Assembly (NCBI GenBank): GCA_026387915.1 | Contig: JAPLKS010000005.1 | Location: forward strand, 186,001 to 250,000 | Direction: 5' to 3' | DNA length: 64,000 bases | Source of the DNA: Gemmatimonadota bacterium | GTDB lineage: Bacteria; Gemmatimonadota; Gemmatimonadetes; Gemmatimonadales; Gemmatimonadaceae | In this document: piece after piece, positions 52,410-64,000 of the stretch | Layout: the number at the start of each line of letters is the position of its first letter | Position numbering within the stretch: position 1 is the first letter of the stretch | Notes under the pieces: model-generated | Told to the model about the DNA's origin: nothing | The model's input: the letters and a program-made list of their open reading frames with translations, nothing else | Databases searched by the model: none | Made by a program: the position numbers and the translations under genes

Positions 52410-53153
52410 TCAGCTGCGCGAGAGGCGCAGTTCGTCGATGGTCACGTGCGCGGGCTGGCTCACCACAAAGAGCACCGCGCGCGCCACATCTTCGGCGCGC
52501 AACATCTGATCGCTCGTCGGGAGCCCAGCCGGCGCTCCGGCCCGCGCGGCGCCCCAGATCTCCGTGTCAGTCGCCGCCGGCGACACAAGCGAGGCCCGCA
52601 CGCCGGTGCCCTGCGTCTCGGCGCGCAACACTTCGTGCACGGCGCGCATCCCAAACTTGGACGCGGCATAGGCCGCGTTGAGCGGAAACGTGTGTCGGTC
52701 CGCGATGGAGCCGATGGTCACGAGGTGACCGCGCCCCGCCGCGAGCATCGCGGGCAGAAAGGCGCGGGCCATTCGGAACGGCGCCACGAGATTCAGGTTG
52801 AGCGTGGCGGCAAAGGCATCGGCAGATTCCTCCGCGGCACGCGCCAAGTGAAAACTCCCTGCGTTGTTTACGACGATGCGCGGCGACTCACCCAGCACGG
52901 CGCCAATCTGTTCGACGGCACGCGCAACAGCCGCGGCGTCGGTGAGATCGCACGGCACCACGTGCGCGCGCGCGCCGAGTTCCGACGCCAGCTCCTCGAG
53001 CGCCGGCCGACCGCGCGAAACGAGCGCCACGGTGGCACCGGCGCCCGCCAACGACCGCGCAATGGCCTCACCGATACCGCGCGAGGCCCCCGTGACGACG
53101 GCGGTGACCCCGTCGAGTGACGACGGAAGGGTGGCGCCCGGAGTGGTAATCAC
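52410..53153 (-). CDS. Short-chain dehydrogenase/reductase (possible sepiapterin-reductase-like)
   Basis: This is a 247-aa classical SDR with a cofactor loop TGASRGIG (21-28), NNAG near residue 95, and a catalytic Ser-Tyr-Lys set in IGSIAD...YAASKFG. The GTG start overlaps the folE stop (GTGA). Sepiapterin reductase, the last step of tetrahydrobiopterin synthesis, is an SDR, and the two preceding genes encode the first two steps. A pterin substrate is inferred from context. The sequence alone also fits a general ketoreductase. Confidence 0.85.
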
Positions 53154-53824
53154 CGCATGGGCGACGAAGGCGCGTATGCCAAGCGCAGGAACTCGTCGCG
53201 CGTCTTGGCGTCGTCGCGGAACGCACCCTTGAGCGAGGAGGTGAGCGTTTTGGAATTCTGCTTCTCAACACCGCGCATCATCATGCAGAGGTGGTACGCT
53301 TCAATGACCACGCCAACGCCAACCGGTTGCAGCACCTCTTCGATGGCCTGCGCGATCTGCTCGGTGAGGCGTTCCTGTACCTGAAGCCGGCGGGCGAACA
53401 CTTCGACAATGCGCGGCAATTTTGACAACCCCACAATGCGCCCATTCGGGATGTAGGCGATGTGCGCCTTCCCAAAGAACGGCAGCATATGGTGTTCGCA
53501 CATCGAATAGAGTTCGATGTCGCGCACCATGACCATCGAGTGATGCGATTCTTCGAACACCGCATCGCCGACGACATCCTGCACGTTCATCTGATACCCG
53601 CGCGTCAGCCAGGTCATGGACTTGGCCACACGACTCGGCGTCTTGGCGAGCCCGTCGCGCTGGGTGTCCTCGCCGAGGAGTTCGAGCTCTCGGCGGATGA
53701 GATTTTCGAACTCGAGTTCGCGACCGATGCTCAGTTCGCCACCCGATTCAAAGGGATCATCGGCGGCATCAATACGCCCCGTGCTCCTCAGACGCGTCGC
53801 GTCACTGCCCTTCATATTCGACAT
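53150..53824 (-). CDS. folE: GTP cyclohydrolase I
   Basis: This enzyme converts GTP to 7,8-dihydroneopterin triphosphate, 224 aa. The zinc ligands Cys109 and His112 ([10 protein letters not shown]) and Cys180 ([10 protein letters not shown]) are intact. The first 35 residues are a family-variable extension. The ATG at 53824 lies inside the end of the PTPS gene (23-bp overlap). It sits between a PTPS-family enzyme and an SDR, in one operon. Confidence 0.96.
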
Positions 53825-54215
53825 AGTTGTTCTCCGTTTCCCAGAGACGGAGCCGCGAGAGGCGGCCCGGGCGCAGCGCAGGTTCGAGCACGCGCCAGCA
53901 CGCAAGAATAATGTTCTCGCTCGTGGGATTTGTTCCCGACAGGAACGGCACGTCGAGATTGAGGTTCTTGTGGTCGACGTGCTGGACAAATTCGGACTCG
54001 ACAATGCGTTTGACGAGTCCAAGGTCAATCACGTACCCCGTGGCCGAGTCTGGCTCCCCCGTGACTGAGACTTCGAGGACGTAGTTGTGCCCATGCCAGT
54101 TCGGGTGGTTGCACTTGCCGAAGATGCGTGTGTTTTCGGCGTCGCTCAGGGCCGGGTTGTGGACCCGGTGGGCGGCGTTGAAGGTGAGACGGCGGGTGAC
54201 GGTGAGGAGAGGCAT
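53802..54215 (-). CDS. 6-pyruvoyltetrahydropterin synthase family enzyme
   Basis: This is a 137-aa pterin enzyme of the PTPS/QueD family. The zinc ligands are His16 and His41/His43, and the catalytic Cys is Cys35. The motif is Cys-x5-His-Gly-His (CNHPNWHGH). The x5 spacing is that of true PTPS (tetrahydrobiopterin branch), while QueD usually has x3. It is the first gene of the PTPS-folE-SDR operon, just downstream of the 6S RNA terminator. Confidence 0.9.
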
Positions 54216-54759: not shown

Positions 54760-55740
54760 TCAGATTTCCCAGTTCGAGAGCACCACGCCGCCGTTTGCTG
54801 GCGGACGCTCTTCAAAGTCCGCGAGGGCCATGCGCAGGTCGGTCCAGCGCACCCGCGCACCCATCGCCATAAAGCGGCGAAACACCCCGCGGTATGCACC
54901 CTGCACACGCACCGCGGCGCGCGCCGTCGACGCCCGCTGCGCGAGCGTGGCCAGCTGAGGCACCAGGCGGTCGAGGAGTAGCTCACTGCGCGCCACCAGC
55001 TTCAACACGCGCAACTCGTCTCGTGAGCGCCCCTCGACGAGTGGCGCCCAATGGCAGAGCGCAAACCCCACGAGCACGTCACCCTCAAGCACCAAGAGCG
55101 TGTCGCCAAGGCGGAGTGATTCGGTGAGTTCGATTTCGCGCGTAAAGTCGTAGCCGCCGCAGATCGACCCAGCCAGCGCGGCACATTCCCGCAACATGGA
55201 ATCGTGGCTCGCCGCGCCAAGGCTGCTCAGGAGCAACACGGGCGCCAGCTCCGCGGCGGCTTCGACGGTGAGCGTTGTCGTCAGGGCACCGGGCACAAAG
55301 CCGAGCGTCGCGTAGAAGCCGATATTGTCCATGGTGCGCGGCATCGTCTCGAGTCCAATCACCGTGCATCGCTGTTGCTGGAGATGACGAACACCGGCGA
55401 GCACAATCGTCTTGCCGTTGCCATCGCCCTGCAGGTCGTCGCGGACCGCGAGGGGACCCATCCACCCTTCGACGCCCGAGGTGTGCGCAATATTGAACGC
55501 CGCCATATCACCGTTGACATCGCGCCAGCACATAGCGCCAGTGCCAGCGTCCTCAATAGCGTAGCGCCAGATCAATGGATTGAGTGGCGGAACGCGCACG
55601 CCAACGAGTCCGTCGCGGCGATAGCGATCGGTAAACGCATCGCTGAACAGGATATTGAGCGGCCCCACATCGCGCGCTTCAATCGGGAACGGCCCCTGCA
55701 TGGCCCGCGGCACGGGGTGCGCATCGCGACTGAACATCAC
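54760..55740 (-). CDS. GNAT-fold protein, two-domain
   Basis: This is a 326-aa protein. Residues about 20-165 form a GNAT domain (MGPLAVRDDLQGDGNGKTIVLAG, then NIGFYATLGFVPG). The second half looks like a diverged GNAT copy (TLLVLEGDVLVGFALCHWAP). The start is GTG at 55740 or ATG at 55737, both overlapping the stop of the SbcC gene. It is the last gene of the DNA-end-processing operon. Its target is unknown. Confidence 0.7.
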   Translation of the reverse strand: MMFSRDAHPVPRAMQGPFPIEARDVGPLNILFSDAFTDRYRRDGLVGVRVPPLNPLIWRYAIEDAGTGAMCWRDVNGDMAAFNIAHTSGVEGWMGPLAVRDDLQGDGNGKTIVLAGVRHLQQQRCTVIGLETMPRTMDNIGFYATLGFVPGALTTTLTVEAAAELAPVLLLSSLGAASHDSMLRECAALAGSICGGYDFTREIELTESLRLGDTLLVLEGDVLVGFALCHWAPLVEGRSRDELRVLKLVARSELLLDRLVPQLATLAQRASTARAAVRVQGAYRGVFRRFMAMGARVRWTDLRMALADFEERPPANGGVVLSNWEI

Positions 55741-58184
55741 GCGCCGCCGTCCGATGCCATGAGCGTCAACGCCGGCGCTTCGGTCGCCGCGCCGCGCCGC
55801 ACAACGGCCGCACCGGTCCGTTCGTCGAGCCCGACTTCGATCACCTGATCGAGCCCGTCCCGCACCCCTTCGATGTGCGTAATTAAAATCACCTGCTCAA
55901 ACCGGTCCTGCAGCCCGCGTAGCAGCTCCACCACATTGTGGCGGCGCGTCTCGTCCAACGATCCAAAAATTTCATCGAGCACCAGTAGCGAGAACGCCTG
56001 CCCCGCCCGTTCCGCAATCATCTGCGAAATCGCGAGGCGGAGCACGAGATTCGCGAGATCTTCCTCGCCGCCGGAAATCACGGGCTTCGGCACGCCATCC
56101 TCGAGGACGACAATGCGATACTTGTCGTCGAGCTCGAGTTCCGTGTACCGCGCATCGGTGAGTTCGGTGAGAAACGCACTTGCCAGCTCCGAGAGTTCCG
56201 GTCGCATAGCAAAATTGAGGTCGGTGCGCAGGTCGCCGTACGCGCGGTGCAGTTCGTCATGCATCCGCTTGTCGCGCTCGAGCCGCTCGAGTTGTTGCTC
56301 CACGCGAGCGAGATCCTCACGCTGCCGCAGCGAACGGTCGAGCGCCGCACGGGCGAGTGCGGCCTCCGTCTGGTGCGCCATCGCGCTCAGGGTGGCCGTC
56401 TGTAACTGCTCAATGAGCGCCGCATGCTGATCGCGGAGCGACCCATATTCTTCTTCCGTGACCGCGAGCACCGTGCGCCGCTGCAACACCGTGTCACGCT
56501 TGGCAGTGAGCGCGACGAGTTCTCGCGCGGCACTCTCTTGCTCGCGCCGCATCGTGGGCTCGCGCTCCACCTGCATGTTGAGCCGGTTGGTCTGCGTACT
56601 CACCGCCGCCAACTCCTCAAACTGCTTCTCGATCTGCTTGTGCCGGGCGAAATCGTAGCCGCCGGGAATACTGGCCAGCTCGGCCGTGAGTGATGCGGCG
56701 CGCTGCTCTTTGGCCGAGAGATCACGGCTGAAATGCGCCAGCTGTCCCACAGCCAGCTTCACCCGCTCCAGCTTTCGCTCGAGCGCCACAACATCGGCCT
56801 GTAGCTTGCGCCGCTCTTCGTCCAGCGCCGCCACATCCTCAGGCATCAGGTCGAGTTGCTCAAGGCGCGAACGGAAGTACGAGCCGTCGGCCGACACGGT
56901 CTCGATCTGACCGTCGAGCAAGTCGAGCACTTGCCGATAATGGTCGCCCAGCGGTCGCTGGCAGGTCGGGCACATACCGGCATCACCAAGATTCACGAGC
57001 TTGTCGCGTTGCTCCTTGAGCTCCGAATATTGCGTGCGCAACGCGTTGCGCCGCGTCTCGGCTTCTTGCCGGTCGCGCACCCACTCCGTGCGTCGCACCT
57101 CGAGCGCACCCTGTGCGGCCTCCACGGCGCGCCGCTTGGCTTCGAGCTCGAGCGTGATCTGCTCTTCGTGGACGGGCGCCGTCTGCACGCGGTCGCGCTG
57201 GTCGCGCAGCGCCCCCACTTCCGCCTGCAACTCCCGCTCCTGCTTCACCTGCTCCTGCCGTCGTCCGTCGTGTATCGCCAGTTCGCGGAGCTTGTTGAGC
57301 TCCACACCCACGTCGTGAAAGGGCACCAACTGCGCGGTCAGCGGCAACAATGCTTCACGCGCGGCGGCGATCTGCCGAAACTCCACGAGCACGCGCTCCG
57401 CATTGCGCTGCTGCGCGCCCAGTTCCATGTCGAGCACGCGGAGATCGGCGTCGAGAATCTGCAGTTCGTCACGCTGGCGTTGCGCGTCGAGCCAGCGTGG
57501 GGCGAATCCATCGAGCTGCAACTGCAGCACCGCGCGCAACGACTCGGACTCCGCCAGCCGCGCCGACGCCTCGCGCAACCGGGCGTCCGCCAAGAGAATC
57601 TCGGCGTTCACCAACGCAGCGTCCGGCATGCCGGTCATCATCCCCGAAATCTCGGCGCGAAGCTCGCGCCGCCGTAGCTCGGCGAGTTCTTGCGCCGTCC
57701 GCAGTTTTTCGTAGCCGAGGACGCGCGACAGAAAGTGCGCACGCTCGCTTGGGGATTTGGACGCCATCACGGTGAGCTCTTTCTGCCCCGTGAAGTACGT
57801 ATTGAAGAACTCCGCGCGCGTCATCCCGAGGCGGCGTTGCAAGAGATCGCCAACGGCCGTTGCGGAGTTCGCAATCGGTTGGTCGGCACCGTCGAGGTAT
57901 ACCTCGGCCATCGTCAGGCCGCGCACCACCACGTAGCGATGTCCGGCTAACTCAAAGTCGAGCTCGACTTTGACCTGTGCGCGCGGCGGAGCGCCCGTGA
58001 AGCGAATGGATTCCTTGCCGCCGCGCGCCGTGTCACCGCCGTACAGCGCCCACGCCACCGCCTCGAGAATCGTCGACTTGCCCACACCGTTGGGCCCGAT
58101 GATTCCCGTGAGCCCCGTCTCAAAGCCGATGTCGGTGTCGGCGTGTTGACGGAAGTTCGTGAGGCGGAGGCGGTTGAGTTTCAC
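55737..58184 (-). CDS. sbcC: SbcC/Rad50-family exonuclease ATPase subunit
   Basis: This is an 815-aa SMC-like ATPase. Walker A is GPNGVGKST (30-38), long coiled coils surround a zinc hook CPTC (Cys405 and Cys408), the signature is ISGGEEDLA, and Walker B is LLVLDEIFGSLDE. Its length is closer to archaeal Rad50 (about 880 aa) than E. coli SbcC (1048 aa). It overlaps the SbcD/Mre11 gene by 4 bp (ATGA) and is the fourth enzyme of a NurA-HerA-Mre11-Rad50 operon. Confidence 0.93.
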   Translation of the reverse strand: MKLNRLRLTNFRQHADTDIGFETGLTGIIGPNGVGKSTILEAVAWALYGGDTARGGKESIRFTGAPPRAQVKVELDFELAGHRYVVVRGLTMAEVYLDGADQPIANSATAVGDLLQRRLGMTRAEFFNTYFTGQKELTVMASKSPSERAHFLSRVLGYEKLRTAQELAELRRRELRAEISGMMTGMPDAALVNAEILLADARLREASARLAESESLRAVLQLQLDGFAPRWLDAQRQRDELQILDADLRVLDMELGAQQRNAERVLVEFRQIAAAREALLPLTAQLVPFHDVGVELNKLRELAIHDGRRQEQVKQERELQAEVGALRDQRDRVQTAPVHEEQITLELEAKRRAVEAAQGALEVRRTEWVRDRQEAETRRNALRTQYSELKEQRDKLVNLGDAGMCPTCQRPLGDHYRQVLDLLDGQIETVSADGSYFRSRLEQLDLMPEDVAALDEERRKLQADVVALERKLERVKLAVGQLAHFSRDLSAKEQRAASLTAELASIPGGYDFARHKQIEKQFEELAAVSTQTNRLNMQVEREPTMRREQESAARELVALTAKRDTVLQRRTVLAVTEEEYGSLRDQHAALIEQLQTATLSAMAHQTEAALARAALDRSLRQREDLARVEQQLERLERDKRMHDELHRAYGDLRTDLNFAMRPELSELASAFLTELTDARYTELELDDKYRIVVLEDGVPKPVISGGEEDLANLVLRLAISQMIAERAGQAFSLLVLDEIFGSLDETRRHNVVELLRGLQDRFEQVILITHIEGVRDGLDQVIEVGLDERTGAAVVRRGAATEAPALTLMASDGGA

Positions 58185-59377
58185 GCGTCTTCCGCCGCCG
58201 CTGCGGAGTCGCGGATCGCGCCCATGGACTCGGCCTCGCGCAGGTAGTGGAGCCCGAGCTCCACCAGCGCGTCACGATCGATGTCGGACGTCAGCGTGCG
58301 ACTGCGCAGCGATTCGCGCAGTGTGTCCGCGAGCGAGGCACGCCGGCCCGGTGCGCCGCTCGTCGCGGGGCGGACCATCTCCGGACGGCGCGTATCGAGA
58401 TGAAAATGCAGCGCACGGCGTTGCAGATCGCGCAACGCCTTGTGGTCGACTTCGCGCAACACGTGGCGGGGCACGTCACGTGCGACGAGGCGCACCACCT
58501 TGCCGTCGATGCCACCAGGCGCCTTGTCGACGGCGGCCGCGATGGCCGCGTCGAGATCCGGCGCCGACATGCCACGCCCAGCAATCGGCGTGAGATCGAC
58601 CAAGGGGCGCGCCACTGTCAGCGGGTGGAACGTCTGCTTCCCGGTGACGAGATCACGCTCGATCATCCCCTTGCCGGGAAGCTTCTGCTCGCGCTCTTCC
58701 TCGATTTCGCCCCACGGATTGGAACTGGTGTAGTCGAGCGCGCCGCTGTAGTACGCGTTCGGCCCCACCCGCTTGTAGACGTGATAATGCCCGAGCGCGA
58801 CGTAGTTCCACCCCGGCGACGACACATCGGCCGCAGGGATTTGGAGCGACGCGCGATCGGTATGCTCCAGATGTTGTGGAATGGCGCCGGCCACTTCGCC
58901 GTGCAGCACCAACACATTCGTCGTCGCGTCAGGATCAGGCTCGAGCGCGACGCTCCCTGGCGGCATGTCGGGCACCGCGAGAATCGAGAGCCCATGCTCC
59001 GGAAAGCGTAGGCGACGCGGCTCGCTGTCCACCACATGAATCCCGAGCGGCGCAAAGAGCCGGAGAATGCACGTGGTCTCGCTCGAGCGTGGCATATCGT
59101 GATTGCCCGCCACCATCACGACGATCGCGTCGGGCAACTCGCGCATCAATCGCGAGAACTGCGCGAATGCATGCAGAATGGCGGGATTGGTGGGGCGGAC
59201 GGTGTGAAAGACGTCGCCGCCAATCAGCACGAGCTCCGGTCGCAGTTCAATGACGCGATCGATCGCCCGCGTGAACGAGAGCGCAACGTCGGCCTCGCGC
59301 TGATTGATGCCGGCGGGCGTCGTTCGCTGGAACTGGCGGAAGCCGAGATGCAGGTCTGAGAGGTGAACCAGTCGCAC
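58181..59377 (-). CDS. sbcD: SbcD/Mre11-family nuclease
   Basis: This is a 398-aa metallophosphoesterase nuclease, the partner of SbcC/Rad50. The metal-binding motifs are complete: DLH (8-10), GGDVFH, GNHDMPRS, LHGEV and GHYHVY. The GTG at 59377 gives VRLVHLSDLHLGF at the N-terminus. The open frame extends 85 codons further upstream into Arg/Pro-rich sequence, which is rejected. It lies 53 bp after herA. Confidence 0.93.
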   Translation of the reverse strand: MRLVHLSDLHLGFRQFQRTTPAGINQREADVALSFTRAIDRVIELRPELVLIGGDVFHTVRPTNPAILHAFAQFSRLMRELPDAIVVMVAGNHDMPRSSETTCILRLFAPLGIHVVDSEPRRLRFPEHGLSILAVPDMPPGSVALEPDPDATTNVLVLHGEVAGAIPQHLEHTDRASLQIPAADVSSPGWNYVALGHYHVYKRVGPNAYYSGALDYTSSNPWGEIEEEREQKLPGKGMIERDLVTGKQTFHPLTVARPLVDLTPIAGRGMSAPDLDAAIAAAVDKAPGGIDGKVVRLVARDVPRHVLREVDHKALRDLQRRALHFHLDTRRPEMVRPATSGAPGRRASLADTLRESLRSRTLTSDIDRDALVELGLHYLREAESMGAIRDSAAAAEDA

Positions 59378-59430
59378 GACTCTAATGTACGCGAGGAGCG
59401 CGAAACCCGCAGGTCGTTTTTCGGCCTCGG

Positions 59431-61386
59431 CTAGAACCCGTAGGGGTCGTCCCCAGGGTTGGTCCGGAGGGCCGGCCGCGGTGCGGCGGGGGGCACCCGC
59501 TCCCCTGCCACCCGCCGCTTGAGCTGGGCACGGAAATAGCTCTTGGGGTCCTCTGGGCGCGCCTGGAGCGTGCGATTGCGGGCGCGCAGCACTTCGTCCT
59601 CTTCGGCCAGCGCGATCGTCTCCTTGACCCACTCCAGCGTCACGCTGGCATCAAGGGCGCGGAGCGATCGCGTAATGGCCGACTCTAACGTGGGTTCCTC
59701 GGCCTGCGGGAACCGTTCAACCCCCTCGCGCCCAGACAACACGGCGGGGCGCGGAAAGCGCACGAACACCGGCTGCGCGAAGTGCGGGTGACGCACCATC
59801 AACTGGCCTTTTTCGAGCGTCGAGAGCTTGGTGCGCGTGGCGGGCGACAGCGTCGCGTAGCCGGGCGTCGCCAACTCGTCGGCGTCCATGCGGCCAAAGA
59901 GTGCGGTGCCACAGTTCCCCACCACACGACGGTGCACCTGCGACCGGAACTGCTGCGCGGCAAACAATACGAGCCCGAGGTAGCGCCCCCGTTCGGCAAT
60001 ATCCAACAGCATCGCCCGCACATAGGTCTCAGGCCCGTCGCTCGGCGCGTACTTATTGAGCTCGTCTACAAAGACGATCACGTGCTCCACGCCGAGTGTG
60101 CGCTTTTCGAGATGCTCGCGCAGCTGCGACACCACGCGCGCAAAAATCAAATCCTGCGCGTCTTCCTCAAGATTGGCCACATCCACCACGTACACACCGC
60201 GGTCGCGGAACGCACCAAAGGGGAGGTCGCTCACCGTGCCGTCGTCGGTCACGAGCCCGCGGCACCGCGTGGAAATATTCGTGAGGCGGTTTCGCACTTT
60301 GCGAATCGTGGCCACGTGGTGCGTGCGCCACGATTCGTGATTCTTGGCTTCCATACCGCGCAGCAAATCGCGGAACCAGCCTTCCAGATCCGTGAACGAC
60401 TGCACACGGTGTTCCACCGAAAGCACGCCGTCGGCAGCAAAGGGCTGATCAACCACGCGCTCCTTGATGAAGTCGATCAGTGCGTCGGCTTTGGCGTCGA
60501 TGTCGTCCTTGTTGAGCAACACTTCGGCGTACTGCAACACTTCGCGAAGCCCCCAGCTCAGCGGACGCACATTGTGCGCAAGCGCTTCGTTGGAACGCAG
60601 GGTGTTGAGCGCGTAGCCGCGCGCTGAATAGGGCGCAAAGTATTCAACGTGCTGGAACGGTTCTGCCGGCACACCCATCGCGTCATAGAGGGCGCGGTCA
60701 GACTCGTCGAGTCGCGTGGCGGGCTGGTCGAGAAAGCAAAGGTCCGGCCCCTTCACGTTGAAACAGACGGCCGCCACGCGTCCTTTCTTTTCGGGAAAGT
60801 GCGCGAAGATCGACGAGAGCAACCATTCCACAGCGCTCGTTTTCGTCGCCAGTCCGGACACACCACTGATGTTGAGGTGCGCCGCTTCGGGCCCCAACAA
60901 AAAATCGGCGTCGAGAAATACCGGTGACTGCGTCCCCCCCGCGCGGTACATCCCCACGGGGATCCCCGTGTTTTCGCCTTCCTTGAGGTACCCGTCCATG
61001 CGCAACGCGACGGCGACGTCATTGTCCGTAGCCAGATGCACGGTGCCGCTTCCCACCGGCTGGAGCGGCTCTTCGGGGATGTGTCGCAACACCGCCGCGG
61101 AGTAGAGCCGGACTTCCGTGCGCCGAGTGGGCGCAGCGCCAGCGGACGACGGCGAGCCGTCGTGCCCAAGGACGTCGTGCAGTGGTGTTTCGAGATCGGT
61201 GTAGGCGAACCCTTCGGTGACCACACCATACGTCCGCGGGAGCGCGCCATTCACCGGCTGCTCCCCTTCCACGCGCACAATGGTGCCGATCCCCACGGGC
61301 GAGTCGAGGGCGGTCCAGAAGTGGAACTCGTGCGGAGTATTCGGGCGTCGCTCAGTGGCGACGATGCGGCCAAGGACGGTGTTCAT
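59431..61386 (-). CDS. herA: HerA-type hexameric DNA translocase ATPase
   Basis: This is a 651-aa DUF87/HerA-family protein with an N-terminal beta-barrel-like HAS region (VGIGTIVRV...YGVVTEGF). The P-loop is a variant, GVSGLATKT (175-183), with Thr where the usual Gly precedes Lys. Walker B is VIVFVDELNKY. A C-terminal RRVVGNCGTALFGRMD segment carries likely arginine-finger residues. HerA works with NurA and Mre11-Rad50 to resect DNA ends in archaea. It lies between nurA and sbcD. Confidence 0.88.
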   Translation of the reverse strand: MNTVLGRIVATERRPNTPHEFHFWTALDSPVGIGTIVRVEGEQPVNGALPRTYGVVTEGFAYTDLETPLHDVLGHDGSPSSAGAAPTRRTEVRLYSAAVLRHIPEEPLQPVGSGTVHLATDNDVAVALRMDGYLKEGENTGIPVGMYRAGGTQSPVFLDADFLLGPEAAHLNISGVSGLATKTSAVEWLLSSIFAHFPEKKGRVAAVCFNVKGPDLCFLDQPATRLDESDRALYDAMGVPAEPFQHVEYFAPYSARGYALNTLRSNEALAHNVRPLSWGLREVLQYAEVLLNKDDIDAKADALIDFIKERVVDQPFAADGVLSVEHRVQSFTDLEGWFRDLLRGMEAKNHESWRTHHVATIRKVRNRLTNISTRCRGLVTDDGTVSDLPFGAFRDRGVYVVDVANLEEDAQDLIFARVVSQLREHLEKRTLGVEHVIVFVDELNKYAPSDGPETYVRAMLLDIAERGRYLGLVLFAAQQFRSQVHRRVVGNCGTALFGRMDADELATPGYATLSPATRTKLSTLEKGQLMVRHPHFAQPVFVRFPRPAVLSGREGVERFPQAEEPTLESAITRSLRALDASVTLEWVKETIALAEEDEVLRARNRTLQARPEDPKSYFRAQLKRRVAGERVPPAAPRPALRTNPGDDPYGF

Positions 61387-61459
61387 CGTACGGCGAAAGG
61401 TAGCAGGGCGCGGCCTCGTCGGTCACGGTCGGCCGAGGGGCCGACGACGGCGGCCACTG

Positions 61460-62479
61460 CTACGCGGTGACCGCCCGCAGGTACTCTTCGCAACTGCGGA
61501 TTCCGTACGCCATCGTGCTCCATCGCCGGTCCGGAAGCGACACCGGCGCCCGTTCGGCGAGCACCCACCGACTCACGAGATCCGCGCGCTCAGTAGAGAA
61601 ATGCGATCGGGCAATCTCCACGCGCACGAGGCCAAAGAATGGGTCGCGCCCGCGCGCGTCGCGGAGCCGCAGATACCAACTTGCCACCCCTGTCCGGCGC
61701 GGGGAGCGAATTTCGAAACCCGTGGTGCGCGCGCCTTCGGGTAGAGCGAGCACGGTGTCCACGGCATCGCCTTCGGCGTAGAGCGTCCGGTGCGACTTCA
61801 CCACGCCCACGGCGTGCTCGTGCTGCGCCGCCGCGCCACTCGCGGCGATGCCACCGTCCACGTACAGCGGTCCGTCGCCCTCGAGGCACCACTGTTCGGC
61901 GAGCGCGATTTCCAGCGATTCGCGTTTGCGTTGCACCGCCGTGCGTGCGAGCGCGATCAACTCCGCGGGGTGCCGCACCGGAGCACCGACCGCACCGTCA
62001 ATGGTGTCTACGACATCGAGCCCCGCCGCGCGCATCGCGTCGACACTACCGTCCGCCACGAGCGACACGGGGAGATAGAGAGCCCGCGCAATCAGCGGCG
62101 CTTCACGCCACGTGGATAATTCGCGCTCCACACGCACGCGCACCACCGCGGCCACGGTGCCGTGCACCACCGGCATGCCGGTGGACCACCGTTCCACGAC
62201 GCGGCTGTTCTGCACGCCGTCGAGAAAGGCGTGAAAGCCTGCGATGGGTGGTTCGGCGAGTTCGCGCACCGCGAGGCGATCGCCTTCGATGGGGGTGGCC
62301 GCTTGGAGGCGCGGCGGGTCGCCGTCGAGTGCAGAGAACTCGAGTGGCGTGTCATCATCGGCGCGGGTGGCCGCCGGTGTGGCGCCGTGCGCGCGCAACT
62401 CGCGCAGCACTCGTAGCGCCTCGCGGGCCGTCAGCCCACCGGCCGTGTCGAGTGAAATCAGGTGACCCCGATGTCCCAC
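61460..62479 (-). CDS. nurA: NurA-domain nuclease
   Basis: This is a 339-aa RNase H-fold 5'-3' nuclease. The catalytic Asp candidates are Asp87 (HAFLDGVQNSRVV) and Asp208 (PLYVDGGI). A GVVKSHRTLY segment and a C-terminal RRWSTMAYGIRSCEEYLRA helix match the NurA layout. The only plausible start is GTG at 62479, overlapping the RAM-domain gene by 22 bp. It is the conserved partner of HerA, whose gene follows 73 bp later. Confidence 0.85.
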   Translation of the reverse strand: MGHRGHLISLDTAGGLTAREALRVLRELRAHGATPAATRADDDTPLEFSALDGDPPRLQAATPIEGDRLAVRELAEPPIAGFHAFLDGVQNSRVVERWSTGMPVVHGTVAAVVRVRVERELSTWREAPLIARALYLPVSLVADGSVDAMRAAGLDVVDTIDGAVGAPVRHPAELIALARTAVQRKRESLEIALAEQWCLEGDGPLYVDGGIAASGAAAQHEHAVGVVKSHRTLYAEGDAVDTVLALPEGARTTGFEIRSPRRTGVASWYLRLRDARGRDPFFGLVRVEIARSHFSTERADLVSRWVLAERAPVSLPDRRWSTMAYGIRSCEEYLRAVTA

Positions 62480-62736
62480 GCCTGCTCGAGATCCGCCTTG
62501 GAGTACGCGCGGAACGCGGTGAGCGTGGTGGTGCGCACGAGCCCGGGCACGTCAGGAAACTCCTCGGTGACGATGCGCGCGATGTCTTCATACTGTGGCA
62601 CCTTCACCATTACGACGAGATCCCATTCGCCACTCACCGAATAGACCTCTGCCACGCCCTCAATGCCCGCCAGCTTGCGCGCGCATTGCGGGATGAGCCG
62701 CGGCTCCGCTTTCACAAGCACGATGGTGGTAATCAT
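62458..62736 (-). CDS. Stand-alone Lrp/AsnC ligand-binding (RAM) domain protein
   Basis: This is a 92-aa protein matching only the C-terminal RAM domain of Lrp/AsnC regulators (TTIVLVKAEPRLIPQCARKLAGIEGVAEVYSVSGEWDLVVMVKV). There is no helix-turn-helix. Such short forms bind amino acids and modulate full-length Lrp. The ATG at 62736 overlaps the stop of the upstream gene (ATGA), and its own end overlaps nurA, so it is embedded in the repair operon. Confidence 0.85.
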   Translation of the reverse strand: MITTIVLVKAEPRLIPQCARKLAGIEGVAEVYSVSGEWDLVVMVKVPQYEDIARIVTEEFPDVPGLVRTTTLTAFRAYSKADLEQAWDIGVT

Positions 62737-63236
62737 GACTCCGCCGGAAACGGGGGAACGTTCAACAACCACACGCCGGCGACGCGTTCGCGTTCGTCGA
62801 CATCTAATGCCAGATCCCGCGCAATCAACACATGCCGCACCGGCCGCACCGCACCAATACGAAAATGAATCGTGCGTTCGGCGACATCGGCGTCCGCCGA
62901 GAGCTCGGTCTCGACTTCGAGCGCCGCAATGCCAGGCTGGGAACGACGCGCTGGAATGCTCACGCGCGACGGCGCGGCGTCAGCAGGAGGCGCGAGCGTT
63001 GCCACTTTGCGCACGTCGGGCCACACCGCCACCTCGACACCGGCAATGCGCCCGGCACTCACATCAAAAATGAGCCACGAACCGTCGCCCCCCTCCACCT
63101 CAACCGACCCCGACATCCCTTCCCCGACGGCAGGCGCGTGCATGCTCGCGGTGAGAATATCGGTATCCGCATCCCATCGGTATGCCACCGCTGGGAGCGG
63201 CACGTCTGTTGGTTCGACTCGAACGGCAAGTTCCAC
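62733..63236 (-). CDS. Conserved hypothetical, DUF2283-like
   Basis: This is a 167-aa protein with a GTG start. It has a YRWDADTDILTASMHA segment and an IFDVSAGRIAGVEVAVW segment, a pattern like DUF2283 (short beta-strand pairs with Asp-rich turns). The C-terminal half is beta-rich (RTIHFRIGAVRPVRHVLIARDLALDVD). No catalytic motif is seen. It is the first gene of the operon leading into RAM-nurA-herA-sbcDC. Confidence 0.5.
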   Translation of the reverse strand: MELAVRVEPTDVPLPAVAYRWDADTDILTASMHAPAVGEGMSGSVEVEGGDGSWLIFDVSAGRIAGVEVAVWPDVRKVATLAPPADAAPSRVSIPARRSQPGIAALEVETELSADADVAERTIHFRIGAVRPVRHVLIARDLALDVDERERVAGVWLLNVPPFPAES

Positions 63237-63329: not shown

Positions 63330-64000
63330 CTATGTCGCCGACGCGTACGCCGCGACAATGCGACGCATCGCTTCATCCACCTGCGACTGTTCGGCTGCGT
63401 ACGACGCGCGAATCCAGTCCGGCGTGAGAAACGCTGAACCCGGCACCACGGCGACGCCACCCTGATCGAGCAACTGCGCAGCAAACGCAGAGCCCGCATC
63501 GTCCCCGGAGGCCGTCTTGGGCGCGCGAATGAAGAGATAGAAAGCCCCGTCAGGCGCCACCACCTCGATGCGCGGATCCTGCCGCAGAATGGCCATCGCA
63601 GAATCGCGCCGCGCCCGGAACTGCGACACCATCGCGGCGATGGCCGCATCGGCCTCGGCGGTGCGCGTCATCGCCGCGAGCGCAGCGTGCTGACTCACCG
63701 CTGCCGGGTTGGACGTGGTGTGCGACTGAAACGCCGTCATCGCCTTGGCCACGGCCGGTTGCGAAATCGTCCAGCCGATGCGCCATCCCGTCATAGCGTA
63801 CGCCTTGGCGACGCCATTGATGACGATCAGGTTATCACGCGTCGTTGCCACATCGAAGGCGCCAGGTGCCGACGCCGAGGTATACGCAATGCGTTGATAA
63901 ATTTCGTCGCACAACACCCACCAGCCGCGTTCCGCCGCCAGGTCGAGAATAGAGCGCAACTCGGCCTCATCGTACACCGAACCGGTGGGATTCACGGGCG
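63330..64000 (-). CDS. Class I aminotransferase (aspartate-type), 5' end cut by window
   Basis: This is the C-terminal 223 or so codons of a PLP enzyme. The NPTG motif, the PLP-contact Asp in VLCDEIYQRIAY, the Schiff-base Lys in VINGVAKAYAMTGWRIGW, and the C-terminal Arg region are visible. The Lys is preceded by Ala where Ser is usual in this family. The N-terminus lies beyond 64000. Aspartate aminotransferase is likely, though other class I substrates are possible. Confidence 0.9.
   Translation of the reverse strand, partial: PVNPTGSVYDEAELRSILDLAAERGWWVLCDEIYQRIAYTSASAPGAFDVATTRDNLIVINGVAKAYAMTGWRIGWTISQPAVAKAMTAFQSHTTSNPAAVSQHAALAAMTRTAEADAAIAAMVSQFRARRDSAMAILRQDPRIEVVAPDGAFYLFIRAPKTASGDDAGSAFAAQLLDQGGVAVVPGSAFLTPDWIRASYAAEQSQVDEAMRRIVAAYASAT

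Follow-up and report, generated by a model that had tools for sequence, protein, structure and literature searches.

A NurA-HerA-SbcD-SbcC gene cluster of bacterial type in Gemmatimonadota, with a probable role in DNA-end processing

Background

Four minus-strand genes for NurA, HerA, SbcD (Mre11) and SbcC (Rad50) lie side by side in the stretch of Gemmatimonadota DNA analysed here (64,000 nucleotides of contig JAPLKS010000005.1, referred to below as the window). In our opinion this cluster is probably a bacterial module for the processing of DNA ends, and we give that reading a probability of about 70%. It is built on gene identity, intact motifs, the fold of NurA, linkage, co-inheritance and the patterns of loss in relatives, all of which are established here. 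A preliminary description of the window had presented the cluster as a resection machine; the identities, the catalytic residues and the gene layout uphold a probable role at DNA ends, while resection itself stays an argument from protein families. The biochemistry, and likewise any physical contact between NurA-HerA and SbcCD, is assumed by analogy with the enzymes of Deinococcus radiodurans and archaea.

Even for archaea it is not settled how HerA-NurA works together with Mre11-Rad50. The joint cluster proves to be a widespread bacterial arrangement, which stayed hidden since both its HerA and its NurA escape Pfam. Its bacterial and plasmid versions, together with a natural "deletion series" among relatives (the pair lost, only NurA lost, the catalytic Asp lost), make the dependence of one part on another testable.

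Gene layout

The run extends from 62479 to 55737, with catalytic motifs present, and is made up as follows.

61460..62479, minus strand: putative NurA nuclease, bacterial type (339 amino acids; start codon uncertain, conservation from about residue 13)
59431..61386, minus strand: putative HerA hexameric ATPase/translocase, D. radiodurans type (651 amino acids; matches the D. radiodurans HerA sequence)
58181..59377, minus strand: putative SbcD/Mre11 phosphoesterase (398 amino acids from GTG 59377; Mre11 family matches)
55737..58184, minus strand: putative SbcC/Rad50 ATPase with a CPTC zinc hook (815 amino acids; Rad50 matches)

Our reading of the genes bears out the order given in the preliminary description, and also its 4-bp overlap of SbcD with SbcC (GTGA). 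The other two junctions are gaps, of 73 bp between NurA and HerA and of 53 bp between HerA and SbcD. The latter figure depends on the SbcD start at GTG 59377, most likely the true one and preferred over a longer open reading frame of 483 amino acids. From this layout the four genes are predicted to form one operon. In 49 related loci a gene whose product begins like a signal peptide and looks secreted stands between HerA and SbcD (e.g. L087:11838-12815); it is absent in the window.

Identity of the proteins

Pfam scans gave no match for either NurA or HerA, and the Pfam NurA profile (PF09376) found nothing in the whole genome. We read this as a blind spot of the profile and reject the conclusion that NurA is absent. 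HerA does match the D. radiodurans protein (PDB 7f6d/7wrw), with E-values of 1.2e-46 for a single sequence in phmmer and 4e-127 for a profile. Both share an unusual P-loop of the form GxSGxATKTS, in the window GVSGLATKTS, where K182 and T183 correspond to K175 and T176, the residues that bind nucleotide and Mg in D. radiodurans. Further ATPase motifs of that type are kept, namely FNVKGPD (K217, D220), the Walker B motif DELNKY (D487, E488) and AERGR with the trans Arg (R513), as in the D. radiodurans structures (PDB 7F6D, 7WRW, 7WRX). A profile search of PDB returned no archaeal HerA at E<0.01, and TdpA of the TdpAB system has no sequence match to the window protein. Judged by sequence, then, HerA is of the bacterial Deinococcus type, the subtype studied in DNA-end resection, and not of a known defence subtype.

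The case of NurA is similar. A profile made from its relatives finds D. radiodurans NurA (7f6d_H, 9.5e-16) and TM1739 of Thermotoga maritima (1zup, 1.5e-9) in PDB, and no archaeal NurA by sequence at E<1. In an AlphaFold (AF2) model with a predicted local distance difference test score (pLDDT) of 92.6, the closest structures are the same two, practically tied: 1zup (VIA Z 19.0, root-mean-square deviation (rmsd) 3.6, 251 aligned) and 7f6d_G (Z 18.7, rmsd 3.7, 265 aligned). Archaeal NurA 2ygk follows (Z 14.1, rmsd 3.7, 210 aligned), and then the TdpAB subunit 8wfd_G (Z 13.1). Residues D87, E190, D208, K228 and R319 are conserved. Three of them, D87, K228 and R319, are the counterparts of D53, K201 and R309 of the D. 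radiodurans enzyme, where their mutation abolishes nuclease activity, and they are kept in nearly all bacterial relatives. The model and the alignment thus give the RNase H-like fold with catalytic Asp, Lys and Arg that marks the Deinococcus-type enzyme, and point to a NurA of bacterial Deinococcus/Thermotoga type.

SbcD carries the phosphoesterase motifs DLHLG, GDVFH, GNHD and GHYH and matches Mre11_Sulfo (1.4e-17), TIGR00619 (9e-17) and Mre11 of M. jannaschii (2.2e-14). It scores 57-62 bits, below the curated NCBIfam cut-off for SbcD of 77.65 bits, so we assign it to the Mre11/SbcD superfamily and not to the TIGR00619 subfamily, as an apparently divergent archaeal-like Mre11. It is the sole clear SbcD of the genome. 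SbcC, which matches PRK03918 Rad50 (1e-53) and M. jannaschii Rad50 (2.5e-31), has the ABC head with Walker A GPNGVGKST, the SGGE signature, Walker B LLVLDE and the CPTC zinc hook. Both proteins score higher against archaeal Rad50/Mre11 than against models of the E. coli or Bacillus type, the standard bacterial SbcCD. The preliminary description had held that loss of catalytic residues in NurA or SbcD would tell against the proposed function; the residues are kept in both. A match of one protein (P0003) to an imine reductase was dismissed as chance.

Distribution and inheritance

HerA is present in 188 of 298 genomes of the phylum Gemmatimonadota. We read 116 HerA loci, a set that includes some genomes twice, and found the order NurA-HerA-SbcD-SbcC in 83 of them, over two families; many of the remaining loci end at contig ends. 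Such conservation in relatives, one of the checks proposed beforehand, means that the adjacency is not due to chance, and the four-gene cluster is the usual state in both main families of Gemmatimonadales. In the papers searched we found no report of a NurA-HerA cluster for Gemmatimonadota.

The preliminary description had considered the arrangement rare in bacteria. This view has to be given up, as at least five bacterial phyla have the cluster, and it had already been published for Oceanithermus (PMC5448004). In Armatimonadota, HerA of the window type occurs in 29 of 121 genomes; eight of the 20 loci read have all four genes in order, and others have NurA-HerA without SbcCD. Among 72,556 plasmid records, only six hold window-type HerA, and each of these carries all four genes. 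They belong to Actinomycetota, Chloroflexota and Cyanobacteriota, and one is a Nonomuraea replicon of 11.85 Mb. The order is NurA-HerA-SbcD-SbcC in Chlorohelix, Sphaerospermopsis, Aulosira and Nostoc, and HerA-SbcD-SbcC-NurA in Streptomyces and Nonomuraea; the annotation of these records calls HerA and NurA ATP-binding proteins or hypothetical proteins, or omits them. The second order is also that of family f5 of the same class. A Marinitoga phage has nurA-herA without SbcCD, and Melainabacteria and one cyanobacterium have SbcC without an adjoining HerA.

Some single observations belong here. Three loci of family f9 (L048, L049, L050) have NurA alone, and in genome G157 HerA is hundreds of kilobases distant. 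On the Chlorohelix plasmid (L213:4838-6829) a sigma factor, an unknown gene and an IrrE-type metalloprotease precede the cluster, and on the Aulosira plasmid (L217:4723-6838) three unnamed genes of similar size occupy the corresponding place; these upstream sets are possibly a regulated variant.

The trees of HerA and SbcC have a deep split in common, even where the genes are unlinked. Clade A holds Gemmatimonadales, Armatimonadota and Cyanobacteria/Melainabacteria; clade B holds f5, Actinomycetota and the Chlorohelix and cyanobacterial plasmids, and in the HerA tree Deinococcus too, so that the window HerA and that of D. radiodurans fall on opposite sides. These are quick trees without archaea, and because of long branches the branching inside clade B is uncertain. 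Since both trees split alike at depth, the parts appear to have been inherited jointly within bacteria. Family f1 forms one starred group and family f2, including its loci without NurA, another, which means that HerA and SbcC follow taxonomy. Chance adjacency is thereby countered a second time. Within Gemmatimonadales the four-gene set has been passed down vertically and has kept its place on the chromosome, and f5 apparently acquired its set from another line.

The same material bears on the label "archaeal-style" given in the preliminary description, and on the idea that an archaeal operon was recently transferred into this bacterium. Indeed, the gene set is identical to that of archaea such as Sulfolobus and Pyrococcus, where the same four families lie in one operon, and SbcC and SbcD score best against archaeal proteins. 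However, the HerA and NurA subtypes differ, as the PDB searches indicate, and the relatives are bacterial clades that track host families, with full-length SbcC relatives found in Armatimonadota and Melainabacteria. The gene order is also unlike the archaeal one, herA-mre11-rad50-nurA, which has NurA last where the window has it first and which we see in f5 and Actinomycetota. (The four archaeal genes are named herA, mre11, rad50 and nurA in PMC4351679.) We therefore keep of the label only the gene set, and regard a recent transfer as very improbable.

Patterns of loss

The counts for f1 (103 genomes), made by hand from the tables, are fully concordant: 86 genomes have NurA as well as HerA, and the remaining 17 have neither. 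A close SbcC is kept in 16 of these 17, and the gene for a GNAT acetyltransferase that follows it likewise in 16. Eleven loci of f1, and one of f2 (G013), read aminotransferase-(RAM/DUF2283-like)-SbcD-SbcC-GNAT, with NurA-HerA gone. In f1, NurA and HerA are kept or lost only as a pair, and SbcCD does not need them.

Family f2 differs. Ten of its genomes had HerA without NurA by the first search; a NurA profile search of these whole genomes found none in eight, a relic in G271 and one marginal match in G012. The relic is a 41-residue NurA C-terminus directly before herA (L244:6282-6425, plus strand). The loci without NurA retain HerA-SbcD-SbcC in place, with intact HerA ATPase motifs. In six other NurA proteins (L051, L054, L063, L115, L119, L147; three from f2) the catalytic Asp that corresponds to D87 is replaced by N, G or A, and judging by that replacement they are likely impaired as nucleases. 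The paired loss in f1, and the loss of NurA or of its Asp in part of f2, are new here, and hint at which parts of the module depend on each other. In a 1.8-Mb genome (L240, G028) SbcC is split over frames, by decay or assembly error.

Because part of f2 lost NurA or its Asp while herA-sbcD-sbcC persist with intact HerA motifs, this family suggests that HerA can serve with SbcCD alone. We would extend this, quite tentatively and at rather worse than even odds, to a bacterial HerA that is a DNA pump serving SbcCD, with NurA as an optional nuclease.

One of the two main rivals to a joint module is that NurA-HerA and SbcCD merely share an operon and are co-expressed without acting together. The persistence of SbcC and GNAT after the loss of the pair speaks for this, as do the Armatimonadota with NurA-HerA and no SbcCD nearby, and the Melainabacteria and the cyanobacterium with SbcC and no HerA beside it. 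On the other hand, the linkage is found in two gene orders and several phyla, HerA and SbcC share their deep split even where unlinked, and in f2 HerA remains with SbcD-SbcC when NurA is lost. We consider independent functions unlikely.

Possible function

If the four proteins form one module, SbcC-SbcD would recognise and open blocked DNA ends. HerA, as a hexamer loaded there, would drive duplex into a dimer of NurA in an ATP-dependent 2:6 complex. The NurA dimer would cut the 5' strand and leave a 3' tail for RecA; the D. radiodurans pair resects 5' strands in vitro (PMC9960219). In design, this would be a Deinococcus-type NurA-HerA machine adjoining a short archaeal-like SbcCD. The search for RecBCD/AddAB elsewhere in the genome, which the preliminary description had called for, gave an AddAB-like adjacent pair at C1:11852-18111, the AddB-like partner with a PDDEXK domain (6.5e-39) and the AddA-like partner with UvrD helicase and PDDEXK (addA 1.6e-68). 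The module would act beside this enzyme, not as its replacement.

Several points weigh against this reading. With an AddAB-like pair present, NurA-HerA-SbcCD is not the sole resection route, and SbcC is retained where NurA-HerA is gone. The DNA-pore residues R495 and R552 of D. radiodurans HerA align to Ser/Thr in the window, in variable loops where alignment and residue placement are unsure. Deletions of HerA-NurA in Deinococcus and Thermus have modest or even protective effects, and the in vivo role is disputed. Finally, HerA-NurA of T. kodakarensis degrades both strands, and an antiviral function is proposed for it in the same paper (PMC12977600).

The last point leads to the other main rival, namely that NurA-HerA is chiefly a defence enzyme that degrades foreign DNA, like TdpAB, HerA-Sir2 or HerA-DUF4297, with SbcCD sharing the work on invader ends. 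The fold match of NurA to the TdpAB subunit fits this, as do the TIR, HEPN and kinase genes near the Chlorohelix plasmid copy and the repeated loss of NurA-HerA as a pair, like accessory functions. The Gemmatimonadales genes, however, occupy a single housekeeping location and follow host families. The run contains no other recognised defence gene, and the HerA matches in PADLOC are weak (mad8 35 bits, HerA 16 bits). In that PADLOC scan of the run, matches to MADS, Lamassu and PtuA were rejected as generic ATPase cross-matches. TdpAB (PDB 8WET/8WFD) has a HerA-like partner and shares the fold of the NurA-like subunit. It gave no sequence match, and NurA is nearer in fold to the D. radiodurans enzyme. 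The neighbours of the pair also differ, being SbcCD in the window and modification genes in TdpAB; none of the latter were recognised in the run, the whole genome not having been searched for them. A literature search on TdpAB with HerA/NurA found nothing relevant. We judge a mainly defensive role to be quite unlikely.

A DNA-end-processing module thus remains our preferred reading, and it differs from known systems in several respects. In D. radiodurans the pair is unclustered with SbcCD (PMC8708640), whereas SbcD-SbcC directly follow it in the window; the Deinococcus-Thermus phylum is said to be without RecBCD/AddAB (PMC12977600), unlike the window genome. The nearest published arrangement is that of Oceanithermus profundus (Thermales, 2017), in which sbcD and sbcC lie downstream of hepA, read there as a later recruitment of SbcCD (PMC5448004). 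Compared by that description, it is likewise a cluster of bacteria in which HerA precedes SbcD and SbcC, but from a single thermophile, whereas ours occurs throughout an order and in further phyla, and its parts show signs of co-inheritance.

Neighbouring genes

The full minus-strand series is aspartate aminotransferase, DUF2283-like, RAM, NurA, HerA, SbcD, SbcC and two-domain GNAT, in which the neighbours are the following.

63330..63998, minus strand: aspartate aminotransferase, housekeeping, 3' part in the window (Aminotran_1_2 8.2e-46)
62733..63236, minus strand: DUF2283-like protein (DUF2283 0.0074, below cut-off)
62458..62736, minus strand: stand-alone RAM (Lrp/AsnC effector) domain protein, 92 amino acids from ATG 62736 (AsnC_trans_reg 8.2e-14)
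54760..55740, minus strand: two-domain GNAT acetyltransferase (Acetyltransf_1 3.8e-7)

The preliminary description had placed the series at 55737-63236; all its genes are present, but the GNAT gene (55740-54760) lies outside that interval. Of the start/stop coupling claimed for the three further proteins, the overlaps DUF2283-like/RAM (4 bp, ATGA) and SbcC/GNAT (4 bp, GTGA) are real.

We disagree with the proposal that the DUF2283-like, RAM and GNAT proteins are new accessory parts, as none accompanies the module outside Gemmatimonadales. GNAT stands directly after SbcC in 68 of 69 Gemmatimonadales loci, also where NurA-HerA is lost, and is absent from the Armatimonadota and plasmid clusters examined, and hence belongs to the neighbourhood. 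The RAM gene occurs in f1 loci only, and the DUF2283-like gene in 23 of 40 loci. All three are Gemmatimonadales neighbours outside the four-gene module.

The aminotransferase marks the locus across relatives. Downstream, at window positions 53150-54215, lie GTP cyclohydrolase I and 6-pyruvoyl-tetrahydropterin synthase, and these housekeeping surroundings (aminotransferase, GTP cyclohydrolase) are fixed; a GTP-cyclohydrolase-like gene is also downstream in 33 related loci.

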